The notes beneath the pieces are model-generated. The model was not told the origin of the DNA. It ran no database searches and saw only the letters and a program-made list of their open reading frames with translations. A program made the translations under genes and the position numbers. Positions 9,802 through 19,583 of a stretch of DNA of 64,000 nt are shown piece after piece; the stretch's first letter is position 1, and each line of letters begins with the position of its first letter. Source of the DNA: a virus; the IMG/VR virus record IMGVR_UViG_3300030390_001550, positions 26,232 through 90,231 of that record; one strand, given 5' to 3'.

Positions 9802-10860
9802 ATGAAAAAACTTTTAGCAATCGTAGCAGCGGGAATGATGTTAGCAACAAGCGCATTCGCTGGGGATAAAGTAAAAGTAGGGTTTGTCTACGTTGGACCA
9901 ACTGGTGATCATGGGTGGACATATCGTCATGATATTGGTCGCCAAGGAGTGCAAGACCATTTCGGTGACAAAGTTGAAACTGTATATGTAGAAAGTGTTA
10001 AAGAAGGTCCAGACGCTGCAAGAGTTATTCGTGGTATGGTAATGGACGGTGCTGATATTATTTTTACAACATCTTTTGGATATATGGAACAAACGCTAAA
10101 AATGGCGAAAATGTTTCCTAATGTAAAATTTGAACACGCAACTGGATATAAGCAAGCAAAGAATATGTCTAGTTATGGGCTTAGATTATATCAAGCACGA
10201 CACGTACAAGGTATTATTGCTGGACTTATGACAAAAACAAATAAGATTTGTTATGTTGCAGCATATCCAATTCCAGAAGTTATTCGTGAAATTAATACCT
10301 ATTTTATGGGCGCACGTAGAATGAATCCAGACGTTGAAATGGATATTGTATGGGTAAATACTTGGTATGATCCCGGAAAAGAGTCGGATGCTGCTAAAGC
10401 CCTCATGTCCCAAGGTTGTGATATGATTGCACAACACACAGACTCTCCTGCGCCAATGCAAGCAGCAGAGGCACAAGGTAGACATGGCTTTGGTCAGGCA
10501 TCAGATCAAATTGTGTTCGCGCCAGATGCACAATTGACTGCAACTATTGATAACTGGACTCCTTATTATATTCGTAAAGTTGGAGCAGTTATTGATGGAA
10601 CTTGGGAGAGTGAGAACTATTTTGGTGGTATGAAAGAGGGTGGTGTGCAAATGGCCCCATTTACCAATATGCCAGATGCAGTTCGCGCCAAAGCACAAGA
10701 GGTAAAAGACCAAATTGAAAATGGCGAATACTTTGCTTTCACTGGGCCATTATATGATAATGAAGGAAATCTTCAACTCGCTGAAGGTGAGGTCGCAACT
10801 GATTTTCAGTTAAATTCAATGAATTATTATGTTGAAGGAATTAACGCGAAAGTACCTTAA
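9802..10860 (+). CDS. Periplasmic BMP/PnrA-family substrate-binding protein
   Basis: A 352-aa secreted solute-binding protein. It has a classical Sec signal peptide (residues 1-20, cleavage after S-A-F-A) and no lipobox Cys, followed by K-V-G-F-V-Y-V-G-P-T-G-D-H-G-W-T, the signature start of the Bmp/Med (PnrA-like) family, with a complete two-lobe length. Known family members bind purine nucleosides for ABC import. No permease or ATPase gene is nearby, so the phage protein would have to feed a host transporter; that is inference. Strong RBS (AAGAAAGG) and an inverted repeat downstream suggest a single-gene unit. A host origin by transfer is likely. Confidence 0.9.
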   Translation: MKKLLAIVAAGMMLATSAFAGDKVKVGFVYVGPTGDHGWTYRHDIGRQGVQDHFGDKVETVYVESVKEGPDAARVIRGMVMDGADIIFTTSFGYMEQTLKMAKMFPNVKFEHATGYKQAKNMSSYGLRLYQARHVQGIIAGLMTKTNKICYVAAYPIPEVIREINTYFMGARRMNPDVEMDIVWVNTWYDPGKESDAAKALMSQGCDMIAQHTDSPAPMQAAEAQGRHGFGQASDQIVFAPDAQLTATIDNWTPYYIRKVGAVIDGTWESENYFGGMKEGGVQMAPFTNMPDAVRAKAQEVKDQIENGEYFAFTGPLYDNEGNLQLAEGEVATDFQLNSMNYYVEGINAKVP

Positions 10861-10913: not shown

Positions 10914-11495
10914 ATGAATAATACAACAAATGGCGGTTCACAACCAGCAATGATTCCACCAAAAATGCAATTAATTTCAAATGGAATGTATGTGTTTATG
11001 GGTGATGTGTCTATGGATACGATGAGTCCAATTATTGATTGGATATTATCAGAAAATATGAAAAGAAGTGATAGACAAAAAGAATTGACTTTAGGTATTT
11101 GCTCAAGAGGTGGTGATCTTAATGCTTGCTTTGCATTAGTTGATGTTTTGAGAGCATCAACAATTCCTGTTAAGACTGTAGGATTAGGTATGATTGCATC
11201 TTGTGGTTTGCTTTTATTTATATCTGGACAAAAAGGTAAAAGAATTTTAACACCAAATACTGCAATTTTATCTCATCAATATTCTTGGGGTAGTGTAGGT
11301 AAAGAACATGAATTGTTTGCCAGAGTGAAAGAGATGGAACTCACAACCGAGCGTATGATTAATCATTACAAAAAATGCACTGGGATGAATGAAAAAAAAG
11401 TAAGAGAGTTTCTTCTTCCACCAGAAGATGTTTGGTTAAGCGCAGAGGAAGCAAAAAGTTTAAAACTTTGTGATAAAATAGAAGATATACAATAA
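10914..11495 (+). CDS. ClpP-like serine protease
   Basis: A 193-aa ClpP-fold protein with a complete catalytic triad: Ser96 in G-M-I-A-S-C-G, His121 in A-I-L-S-H-Q, and Asp172 in P-P-E-D-V-W-L-S-A-E-E-A. The oxyanion loop S-R-G-G-D (64-68) is present. ClpP-family peptidases form tetradecamers and need an unfoldase; the phage copy could use host ClpX/ClpA or act in capsid maturation. It is followed by a strong terminator, then the AsnRS-like gene and an aberrant tRNA. Confidence 0.88.
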   Translation: MNNTTNGGSQPAMIPPKMQLISNGMYVFMGDVSMDTMSPIIDWILSENMKRSDRQKELTLGICSRGGDLNACFALVDVLRASTIPVKTVGLGMIASCGLLLFISGQKGKRILTPNTAILSHQYSWGSVGKEHELFARVKEMELTTERMINHYKKCTGMNEKKVREFLLPPEDVWLSAEEAKSLKLCDKIEDIQ

Positions 11496-11566: not shown

Positions 11567-12394
11567 ATGACACAACTGATAAATCCAAAGAAATTTACTA
11601 ACACTGTGGGGCTTTTACGCTCCTTTTTTTTGACCAGAGGGTTTCAAGAAGTACATACGCAAAATAGATTAAGCATTTTAGCAGCATGTGAAGACCCAGA
11701 AAATGTAGCAAGTTATAATTATGAAGGTGAGGTTTGGCCTTTACCGCAAACAGGTCAAATGTGGCTAGAACATGAATTATTATCTGATCCCTCTGCGAAG
11801 GGATTTTTTTGTGTCTCCACTTCATATAGACAAGAACCAAACGCAATTCCAGGTAGACACGATACGATTTTTCCTATGTTTGAATTTGAAATGGCAGGTG
11901 ATATTAATGATCTTAAAGTTATGGAAAGACAATTAGTAAGTCACTTAGGTTTTGACGATTGCACAGAGAAAACGTATGGAGAATGGCAGCAACATTATGG
12001 TGTTAGTGCAAATACCGAATTGGATGCCCAACATGAGTTGGCAATGCAAGCATCATTCGGTTCTTGTATGATTACAGATTTTCCAGAGATAACAAGTCCG
12101 TTTTGGAATATGTCTAGAAACGAGGATGGTACAAGTAGAAAAATTGATGTTATCCTTGGTGGTATGGAAACTATTGGTAGTGCAGAACGCAGTACCGACA
12201 AAGAACAAATGAGAAACACATTTAATACAATTTCTAATGGTGAATATGCTGGACTCATCAAGAGTTTATTTGGAGATGAAAGGGTTGAGGCAGAACTTGA
12301 AAAGTTTCTTGAGTTTGATTTCTTCCCAAGAGTTGGTGGTGGTATAGGGTTGACACGAATGATATCCGCTCTAGAAACTCAAAAGAGTAACTAA
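11567..12394 (+). CDS. Minimal AsnRS/AsxRS-like class II synthetase core
   Basis: A 275-aa protein that is only the catalytic core of a class II aspartyl/asparaginyl-type synthetase. Seen: G-F-x-E-V near 25 (motif 1 region), T-G-Q-M-W-L-E (62-68), motif 2 Y-R-Q-E (87-90) with R-H-D (97-99) and F-E-F-E-M (105-109), G-G-M-E-T-I-G-S-A-E-R, and motif 3 G-G-G-I-G-L-T-R-M (257-265). ATP-binding residues are kept, so an adenylation reaction is plausible. The N-terminal OB-fold anticodon-binding domain is absent. Stand-alone cores of this kind include asparagine-synthetase-like AsnRS paralogs and EpmA. The ATG at 11567 has a GA-rich RBS; an upstream TTG inside the terminator is rejected. A tRNA with Asn-like identity bases lies 9 nt downstream. 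Confidence 0.85.
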   Translation: MTQLINPKKFTNTVGLLRSFFLTRGFQEVHTQNRLSILAACEDPENVASYNYEGEVWPLPQTGQMWLEHELLSDPSAKGFFCVSTSYRQEPNAIPGRHDTIFPMFEFEMAGDINDLKVMERQLVSHLGFDDCTEKTYGEWQQHYGVSANTELDAQHELAMQASFGSCMITDFPEITSPFWNMSRNEDGTSRKIDVILGGMETIGSAERSTDKEQMRNTFNTISNGEYAGLIKSLFGDERVEAELEKFLEFDFFPRVGGGIGLTRMISALETQKSN

Positions 12395-12403
12395 AGCGCA
12401 TAT

Positions 12404-12514
12404 TCTGGGGTGGTGGAATAGGTAGACACGCGATACTGTTTATATCGTGGATATATAGTTAAGTGTAAAAGACTATTTATATTCGTGAAGGTTCGAGTCC
12501 TTCCCCCAGAGCCA
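12404..12514 (+). tRNA. Aberrant tRNA with GUU anticodon and giant variable arm
   Basis: 111 nt with encoded CCA. Acceptor TCTGGGG/CCCCAGA with discriminator G; D-arm GTG/CAC whose 19-nt region (12411-12429) is identical to that of the phage tRNA-Leu at 19497; anticodon stem CGATA/TATCG with loop CTGTTTA, anticodon GTT at 12438-12440; T-arm GAAGG/CCTTC with loop TTCGAGT. The variable region is 39 nt (12448-12486) and can form an 11-bp arm with a 2-nt bulge. Anticodon GUU, G73 and U1-A72 are Asn-type features, but the body is class II (Leu-like), and position 37 is U where a purine is nearly universal. It may not be a decoding tRNA. Confidence 0.8.
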
Positions 12515-12528
12515 AAGGAAATAAAAAA

Positions 12529-13392
12529 ATGATACCAGTGATTGATTTAAATTCTTCATATGCAAATCAGCATATTGAGGATGCCTACACATCTGTGGGT
12601 TTTGCAGTTTTTACTAATAGTTTAACTCAAATTGAAAAGTCTGACATAATTAGTTGGTTTAGCGAAATGAAAGCATTTTTCAATTTACCTGATGAAATAA
12701 AGAAAAAATATCCATATGAAGGCGATACCAATCTAGGATATAGCATGGTGGGTGATGAAAATGTTGATCCAACAGCACCTAAAGACATTAAAGAATCTTT
12801 CAATTACAATAATACAAGAATGAGCGAATATCTTTGGCCCAAAGAACTTCCAGGATTTAAAGCAACAGCATTACAAAGTATTGATGTTGCAGACAAACTT
12901 ACGATTAGAATACTTAGTAGGTTTGATGAAATTCTAAAATGTGGCACTACTCTTGTGGACGCTCATATGAAACCATTTAACACTACAAGAGTTATTCATT
13001 ACCCAGCCCATGATGGTCCAGTAGAAGATAAGCAAATGAGAATAGGTGAACATAGTGACTATGGTACTATCACATTACTGTGGCAAATTAATGATGTTCC
13101 AGGATTGCAAGTTCAAGACTTAAAAGGAGAGTGGCATCCAGTGCCATATGATGTTGACGGTGTGGTTGTGAATATTGGCGATCTACTCCAGAGATGGACA
13201 AACGATTACTTTAAAAGCACTAAGCATAGAGTAGTTAATTCGCATATACATAAGACTAGATACAGTATGCCACATTTTGTTGATCCTACTCCAGGAACAA
13301 TGGTGAAAAATTTGAGAACCCATGAGGTTGACAAGTACTTACCTATTGAGAGTAAAGAATATTTGATGTGGAGACTAGCACAAAGTTATTGA
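12529..13392 (+). CDS. 2OG-Fe(II) oxygenase, isopenicillin-N-synthase-like
   Basis: A 287-aa member of the IPNS/flavanone-hydroxylase-like dioxygenases. It has the N-terminal I-P-V-I-D-L strand, the HxD iron site in G-E-H-S-D-Y-G (about 172-178), V-P-G-L-Q-V, the distal His in S-T-K-H-R-V (about 231), and the 2-oxoglutarate-binding R-Y-S-M (about 244). It would use Fe(II), O2 and 2-oxoglutarate to oxidise a small molecule or modified base. The RBS is AAAGGA just after the tRNA. Substrate unknown. Confidence 0.85.
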   Translation: MIPVIDLNSSYANQHIEDAYTSVGFAVFTNSLTQIEKSDIISWFSEMKAFFNLPDEIKKKYPYEGDTNLGYSMVGDENVDPTAPKDIKESFNYNNTRMSEYLWPKELPGFKATALQSIDVADKLTIRILSRFDEILKCGTTLVDAHMKPFNTTRVIHYPAHDGPVEDKQMRIGEHSDYGTITLLWQINDVPGLQVQDLKGEWHPVPYDVDGVVVNIGDLLQRWTNDYFKSTKHRVVNSHIHKTRYSMPHFVDPTPGTMVKNLRTHEVDKYLPIESKEYLMWRLAQSY

Positions 13393-19289: not shown

Positions 19290-19514
19290 ATGCTTACATG
19301 CTTAATAGTTGCAGGATCATTATGGATAGGTGATGACACTAGGATGTTTCCAACACAAGGAGCGTTTTATTTTATTAAACAAAGAGATGTGATTGTAATT
19401 TATGATAATTCAAAACGAACAAGAATCGCTAGTTTTGTAATACCAAAGAATGTTAAAGGCGATACTATAAAAGAAGTATTTGAAAATTGTAATAACGCTC
19501 CCATGGTGGAATAG
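19290..19514 (+). CDS. Small phage protein overlapping tRNA-Leu
   Basis: A 74-aa protein with AAGGAG upstream of the ATG. Its N-terminus is mildly hydrophobic (M-L-T-C-L-I-V-A-G-S-L). The last six codons, including the stop, lie inside the acceptor and D-arm of tRNA-Leu, so tRNA processing would destroy the mRNA end. Unknown role. Confidence 0.55.
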   Translation: MLTCLIVAGSLWIGDDTRMFPTQGAFYFIKQRDVIVIYDNSKRTRIASFVIPKNVKGDTIKEVFENCNNAPMVE

Positions 19515-19583
19515 GTAGACACACCAGACTTAAAATCTGTTGCCCATAGTGGCGTCCCAGTTCAAGTCTGGGTGGGAGTACCA
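19497..19583 (+). tRNA. tRNA-Leu (UAA)
   Basis: Class II tRNA with CCA: acceptor GCTCCCA/TGGGAGT (one G-U pair), D-arm GTG/CAC, anticodon loop CTTAAAA (TAA), 15-nt variable arm, T-arm CCCAG/CTGGG with loop TTCAAGT. TTA is a major codon here. Its D-arm is identical over 19 nt to that of the aberrant tRNA at 12404. Confidence 0.93.

Follow-up and report, generated by a model that had tools for sequence, protein, structure and literature searches.

Why should a virus encode a tRNA that carries the anticodon of tRNA-Asn on a body resembling that of tRNA-Leu, with a synthetase-like gene directly upstream of it? The window in which this locus lies is a stretch of 64,000 nucleotides from the IMG/VR virus record IMGVR_UViG_3300030390_001550 and its main features are collected in Table 1. 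A preliminary description had taken the RNA for a chimera made to work with a special partner, an interpretation that our analysis supports as far as computation goes. The answer we favour, and consider probable, is that the two genes constitute a self-contained phage aminoacylation pair that attaches Asn to its tRNA, decodes AAU/AAC and operates independently of the host.

Table 1. Positions in the window of the synthetase gene, the tRNA and the parts of the tRNA.
Feature	Position	Strand	Basis
Minimal class IIb synthetase, 275 aa, AsnRS-type catalytic domain only; phrog_29758; 'tRNA ligase' T4-GC194 of P-SSM2/P-SSM7	11567..12394	+	profiles, model
Class II tRNA(GUU), tRNA-Leu-type core, G73, U1-A72, U37, encoded CCA	12404..12514	+	RF00005 score, covariation, 136-member family
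Anticodon loop CTGTTTA: U33, G34 U35 U36, U37, A38	12436..12442	+	sequence, family tally
Variable region, 39 nt; 12 bp + 2-nt bulge in single-sequence fold	12448..12486	+	folding

The sequence bears out the GUU anticodon, discriminator G, U1-A72, U37 and 39-nt variable region that had been assigned to this tRNA. The acceptor arm is TCTGGGG/CCCCAGA, which places the U1-A72 pair at its end, and is followed by G73 and the encoded CCA; the anticodon stem CGATA/TATCG closes the loop CTGTTTA. The D-arm had been said to match the phage tRNA-Leu over 19 nt; this identity, with the tRNA-Leu at 19497-19583, is without mismatch (TGGTGGAATAGGTAGACAC). Scoring with a covariance model, proposed in the preliminary description, gave 43.8 bits with RF00005 in a relaxed local Rfam search (gathering score 29, E 2.6e-8). 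Neither ARAGORN nor a filtered Rfam scan of the whole window called the tRNA, probably because of the 39-nt variable region, and standard annotation would therefore miss it too. All arms are present in the minimum-energy fold, where the long arm that had been predicted forms as 7+5 bp with a 2-nt bulge; the z-score of single-sequence folding (-1.69) is weak taken alone.

By these features the molecule is not a canonical class I tRNA-Asn, as the variable loop of about 5 nt and the purine at position 37 are both absent. It has the class II body of tRNA-Leu (A15-U48, a 3-bp D stem and a long variable arm) and lacks the leucine identity base A73. Its acceptor branch, with a 7-bp acceptor and a 5-bp T stem in the alignment, is not the 8/4 or 9/3 branch of allo-tRNAs.

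The pattern is that of a family. We collected 136 distinct tRNAs by structure only, without conditioning on U33 or GUU, and this set provides the main tally. The anticodon GUU and G73 are found in 136/136, as are A14, A15 and U48, and the elements of a normal tRNA core (A14, G18, G19 and the T loop) are retained. U1-A72 occurs in 123 of 127 members in a tally that was conditioned on U33 and GUU. In a divergent viral clade (L279, L280, L282, L286) A1-U72 replaces U1-A72, with GUU and G73 retained. GUU and G73 make up the bacterial Asn identity set and A15-U48 is a core element of tRNA-Leu (PMC9976931), so the family is best described as an Asn-identity tRNA on a Leu-type frame, which upholds the idea of a chimera. 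The anticodon loop is otherwise relaxed. Base 33 is not U in 14/136. At position 37 there is U in 116 members, A in 15, C in 3 and G in 2, which gives a non-purine in 119/136; the control, drawn from the other tRNAs of the same loci that ARAGORN called, has a purine at 37 in 107/109. Counted by base combination, positions 33 and 37 are unable to pair in 117/136 members.

The variable region measures 12-39 nt across the family, with the exception of two viral members with 5-7 nt. Hairpin folding is seen in all of 78 distinct variable regions except the three that measure 5-7 nt and one that has 14 nt. In an alignment of 56 diverse homologs, standard pairing holds in 99.7% of 1287 pair cells and falls to 42-61% when partners are slid against each other as a control. 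Two-sided changes occur at 21/23 pairs, in every arm and including all three counted pairs of the variable arm, whose covariation had been named as a check. An intron or removed segment as the origin of the long region is contradicted by this covariation together with the spread of arm lengths: relatives with arms of 13-17 nt show a genuine variable arm of changing length, which is kept in the family.

Nine bases separate the end of the synthetase gene from the start of the tRNA downstream of it. Relatives of the enzyme were found in at least 600 IMG/VR viral stretches, and the association of the two genes was followed from both sides. From the tRNA side, a search of viral contigs with three DNA patterns found the AsnRS-like gene directly upstream and on the same strand at 229/229 testable tRNAs among the matches listed, in agreement with the special partner that had been suspected. 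A further 16 pattern tRNAs lie at contig or stretch ends without upstream sequence, and two pattern hits are not tRNAs. As many contigs are close relatives, the 229 are places and not independent events. From the enzyme side, a GUU tRNA is present at 183 of the 202 distinct viral loci with room downstream (179 plus four whose tRNA has a non-U33 loop), with no tRNA nearby at the other 19. The association covers enzymes near 50% identity, and the tRNA-bearing viral enzymes occupy two separated clades in a tree given a midpoint root for drawing only, which suggests either an ancient association or the transfer of both genes as a unit. Both genes, the fold and the invariant bases are shown by computation, as is the conserved pairing of the two genes, for which the evidence is strong.

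The same gene is known from cyanophages P-SSM2, P-SSM5 and P-SSM7 as the 'tRNA ligase' T4-GC194 (PMC3037559). A tRNA-Asn is annotated right after it in P-SSM7 and P-SSM5, and the P-SSM2 sequence at this place holds the same tRNA. In P-SSM7 the pair sits within a tRNA cluster. For P-SSM2 one tRNA is listed for the whole genome (PMC3037559), and this sole listed tRNA is annotated as tRNA-Asn.

Some loci are arranged differently. At one (L091:6866-6885) the synthetase is followed by an acceptor minihelix only (TCCGGGG T CCCCCGGA GCCA), which may reflect a genuine deletion or a faulty assembly, or may be a minimal substrate. Two huge-phage genomes of 735 and 484 kb (LR756501 and LR756508; L004, L005) contain the enzyme, and a pattern search of both whole genomes returned no matching tRNA. 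A 2OG oxygenase gene (12529-13392 in the window) was considered as a third component and rejected, being present at 20/209 loci in varied positions; only the window and seven close relatives have it directly downstream, and one of these relatives is without the tRNA. At L011/L120 the enzyme gene runs directly into the oxygenase gene with no tRNA between them, and close relatives differ in this respect. On the other side of the pair, the window encodes a ClpP-like protease just upstream (10914-11495), related to phage head-maturation proteases, and before it a PnrA/Bmp-type ABC transporter substrate-binding protein with an apparent signal peptide (9802-10860), here in a phage contig.

The enzyme belongs to the class II D/K/N synthetase family by its match to PF00152 (residues 12-273, 57.3 bits against a cut-off of 25, E 1.7e-15) and matches phrog_29758 with 430 bits. 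The class II motif residues R88, E90 and R264 are invariant in an alignment of diverse homologs; motif 3 (GGGIGxTR) departs from the usual form in having a Thr before the Arg. An AlphaFold2 model (pLDDT 91.6) comprises a complete class IIb catalytic domain. Its nearest structure is human AsnRS (VIA Z 27.2), ahead of AspRS (26.0), EpmA/GenX with its LysRS-like core (23.9) and the archaeal protein AS-AR (23.7). A PDB profile search likewise places AsnRS 2xgt first (E 1.3e-12) and AS-AR 3p8t far behind (E 1.6e-3), so that AS-AR is not the closest relative by either measure. The anticodon-binding domain is absent from the 275 residues, and the model aligns only from residue 119 of 1x54 and residue 233 of human AsnRS. 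The motif QTGQMWLE aligns with QSSQLYLE of AsnRS, where the AspRS compared has QSPQLYKQ, and its L67 and E68 do not vary across 35 diverse rows; judged by this motif, the amino-acid pocket is of the Asn type and not the Asp type. With 24.1 bits against a cut-off of 342.6 for the NCBI AsnRS equivalog model TIGR00457, the enzyme is not filed as a canonical AsnRS.

Relatives are not confined to viruses. The 31 enzyme loci taken from species genomes include phage-like ones; the rest are on contigs of Bacteroidota, Patescibacteria, Chlamydiota and further groups. The cellular spread is patchy, with a strong enzyme match in 1/119 genomes of one order. Canonical AsnRS exceeds the cut-off in 17 of 26 cellular genomes with the enzyme. 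Searching these 26 genomes with a class II GUU tRNA pattern that requires U33, and which a C33 form would escape, gave scattered hits only, at about the level of a reversed control, and we read them as chance. In three of these genomes the 30 matches fetched with an RNA model were ordinary tRNA-Leu, tRNA-Ser, tRNA-Tyr and others, including tRNA-Asn of 74-76 nt, and no class II GUU tRNA. The enzyme family can thus have some role without such a tRNA, its cellular relatives lacking one where tested and standing mostly beside a canonical AsnRS. A comparison of the presence of AsnRS, GatB and AsnB in cellular genomes, made for a clue to function, showed no consistent pattern. In four Bacteroidota loci (L093, L094, L103, L111) a dihydroorotate dehydrogenase gene adjoins the synthetase relative upstream, and in a Myxococcota locus (L106) another pyrimidine gene, for OMP decarboxylase, lies downstream. 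An ordinary class I tRNA-Asn(GUU) is located about 200 nt downstream of one relative of 45% identity (L116:7021-7093), in a genome with no canonical AsnRS over the cut-off.

We propose that the AsnRS-like enzyme, reduced to its catalytic domain, charges the dedicated tRNA at the 3' end, and the amino acid attached is predicted to be, most likely, Asn. As the enzyme is without the anticodon-reading domain used by other class IIb synthetases, it is expected to recognise its tRNA by the acceptor end and the class II body, probably by the acceptor end in combination with the body or the variable arm. A class II synthetase approaches its tRNA from the variable-arm side, which fits recognition of this kind. 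Since GUU is invariant and the enzyme has no anticodon domain, another reader of the anticodon is needed, the simplest being the ribosome. The charged tRNA would most likely enter the host ribosome at AAU and AAC codons. A phage Asn-tRNA shaped unlike that of the host need not depend on the host AsnRS or on AspRS/GatCAB, and we infer that the kit probably gives the virus an Asn adaptor independent of the host's usual charging route. A reason for U37 may be found in the same independence. When base 37 carries no modification, A37 pairs with U33 and the loop collapses (PMC5485724). U37 would abolish this pair, which is normally prevented by modification of purine 37, and the large share of members whose bases 33 and 37 cannot pair would fit a tRNA working without host t6A37.

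U33 and purine 37 are kept in ordinary tRNAs for efficient decoding, and their relaxation in this family is the main objection to a decoding role. The relaxed loop is compatible with non-decoding use or with another amino acid. There is accordingly a real, if minor, chance that the pair is a private tRNA/synthetase channel beyond simple Asn supply, with Asn codons partly re-assigned during infection or with the charged tRNA made for a non-ribosomal job.

The second of these options can be stated more specifically: the charged Asn-tRNA would serve mainly as an amino-acid donor, decoy or regulator, for example as a ligand of host AsnRS or of the Asp-tRNA(Asn)/GatCAB machinery, and its anticodon would be an identity element for a host protein. 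This we consider unlikely, even though it would account for the contrast between the relaxed positions 33 and 37 and the bases without any variation, which are precisely those of AsnRS identity, and for GUU being kept by something other than the enzyme, which is without a domain for reading it. The prevalent U1-A72, a GatCAB determinant (PMC9976931), points the same way. Against it, no conserved third gene is at hand to use the charged tRNA, the oxygenase being too sporadic and too variably placed; the P-SSM7 pair is located among tRNAs; and the core is that of a normal tRNA.

Programmed mis-decoding, in which a non-Asn amino acid is loaded and inserted at some Asn codons, appears improbable. 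Its precedent is ProRSx with Pro at Ala codons (cited in PMC9437257), and a change of meaning would be expected to come with its own enzyme and its own tRNA; the unusual motif 3 might also be understood in this way. The Asn-type QTGQMWLE with its two invariant residues and AsnRS as the nearest structure speak for Asn itself. Moreover, Asn codons account for 6.5% of those counted in the larger genes of the window, so mis-reading would strike the phage's own proteins.

It is more doubtful still that the enzyme modifies the anticodon loop, as GluQ-RS does, and that host AsnRS charges the tRNA through GUU and G73. Other catalytic-domain-only paralogs do act away from the 3' end (PMC9437257), GUU is invariant between variable positions 33 and 37, and the cellular relatives occur beside canonical AsnRS and, in the genomes tested, with tRNA-Asn of the ordinary kind only. 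Such a role would leave unexplained both the conserved class II body and the need for a private tRNA over the host tRNA-Asn. There is similarly little to recommend an ammonia-dependent asparagine synthetase like archaeal AS-A/AS-AR that supplies free Asn while the host charges the tRNA. The domain content is the same and AS-AR structures do resemble the model, and such an activity would suit cells that already have AsnRS, but AsnRS is nearer in both profile and structure and free Asn gives no reason for linkage to one tRNA at every testable place among the matches listed. Finally, that the tRNA is a pseudogene or its long region an intron or removed is scarcely credible: the very long variable region and the ARAGORN miss would suit it, against near-perfect pairing, covariation in every arm and arms of 12-39 nt that fold in place in all cases but one.

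If the reading of a self-contained Asn-charging pair is true, marine phages commonly carry a naturally evolved, apparently host-independent synthetase/tRNA pair of 275 aa plus about 80-110 nt. The pair opens three questions: what makes phages bring translation parts of their own, whether a class II synthetase can select the right tRNA while leaving the anticodon unread, and to what extent a tRNA may depart from U33 and purine 37. It is a possible starting point for genetic-code engineering. Members of this phage tRNA(GUU) family are missed by standard tRNA finders.

We found no description of the enzyme/tRNA pair in the literature searched, a scope short of preprints and most subscription papers, and the annotation of P-SSM2 and P-SSM7 names the enzyme only 'tRNA ligase'. 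The pair shares with canonical bacterial AsnRS/tRNA-Asn(GUU) the class IIb catalytic fold, the Asn-type motif, GUU, G73 and usually U1-A72; it differs in an enzyme without anticodon-binding domain and in a class II tRNA with a Leu core, a 12-39 nt arm and relaxed bases 33 and 37. With bacterial tRNA-Leu the phage tRNA has in common the 3-bp D stem, A14, A15-U48, G18G19 and the long variable arm, whereas G73 in place of A73, the Asn anticodon, U1-A72 and a variable region of up to 39 nt set it apart. Archaeal AS-AR (3P8T, 3REX) also has an AsnRS-like catalytic domain without an anticodon-binding domain, yet stands further from the phage enzyme than AsnRS does in sequence and structure, and we know of no tRNA partner for it. 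EpmA/PoxA/GenX and GluQ-RS are likewise minimal synthetases without this domain, but their targets are EF-P or the queuosine of a host tRNA, and they come without a private tRNA; EpmA, moreover, resembles LysRS.

Dedicated synthetases with dedicated, structurally odd tRNAs are known. ProRSx is a bacterial example with an altered tRNA (cited in PMC9437257), and PylRS/tRNA-Pyl is another such pair; these are other enzymes with other amino acids, whereas the pair described here is found in phages and is predicted to be of the Asn type. Where defence systems cut host tRNAs, phage-encoded ones can take their place, as for T5 tRNA-Tyr and for tRNA-Lys against PrrC170 (PMC11555353). The replacement of a host tRNA function would be shared with these cases, for which no dedicated synthetase gene is described. 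Huge phages encode both synthetases and tRNAs, and their synthetases have been proposed in general to charge phage tRNA variants (PMC7162821), in contrast to the one specific linked pair of distinct structure at this locus. Synthetase/tRNA pairs as such are thus already known; what is new here is a pair that joins an enzyme lacking the anticodon domain to a chimeric tRNA.
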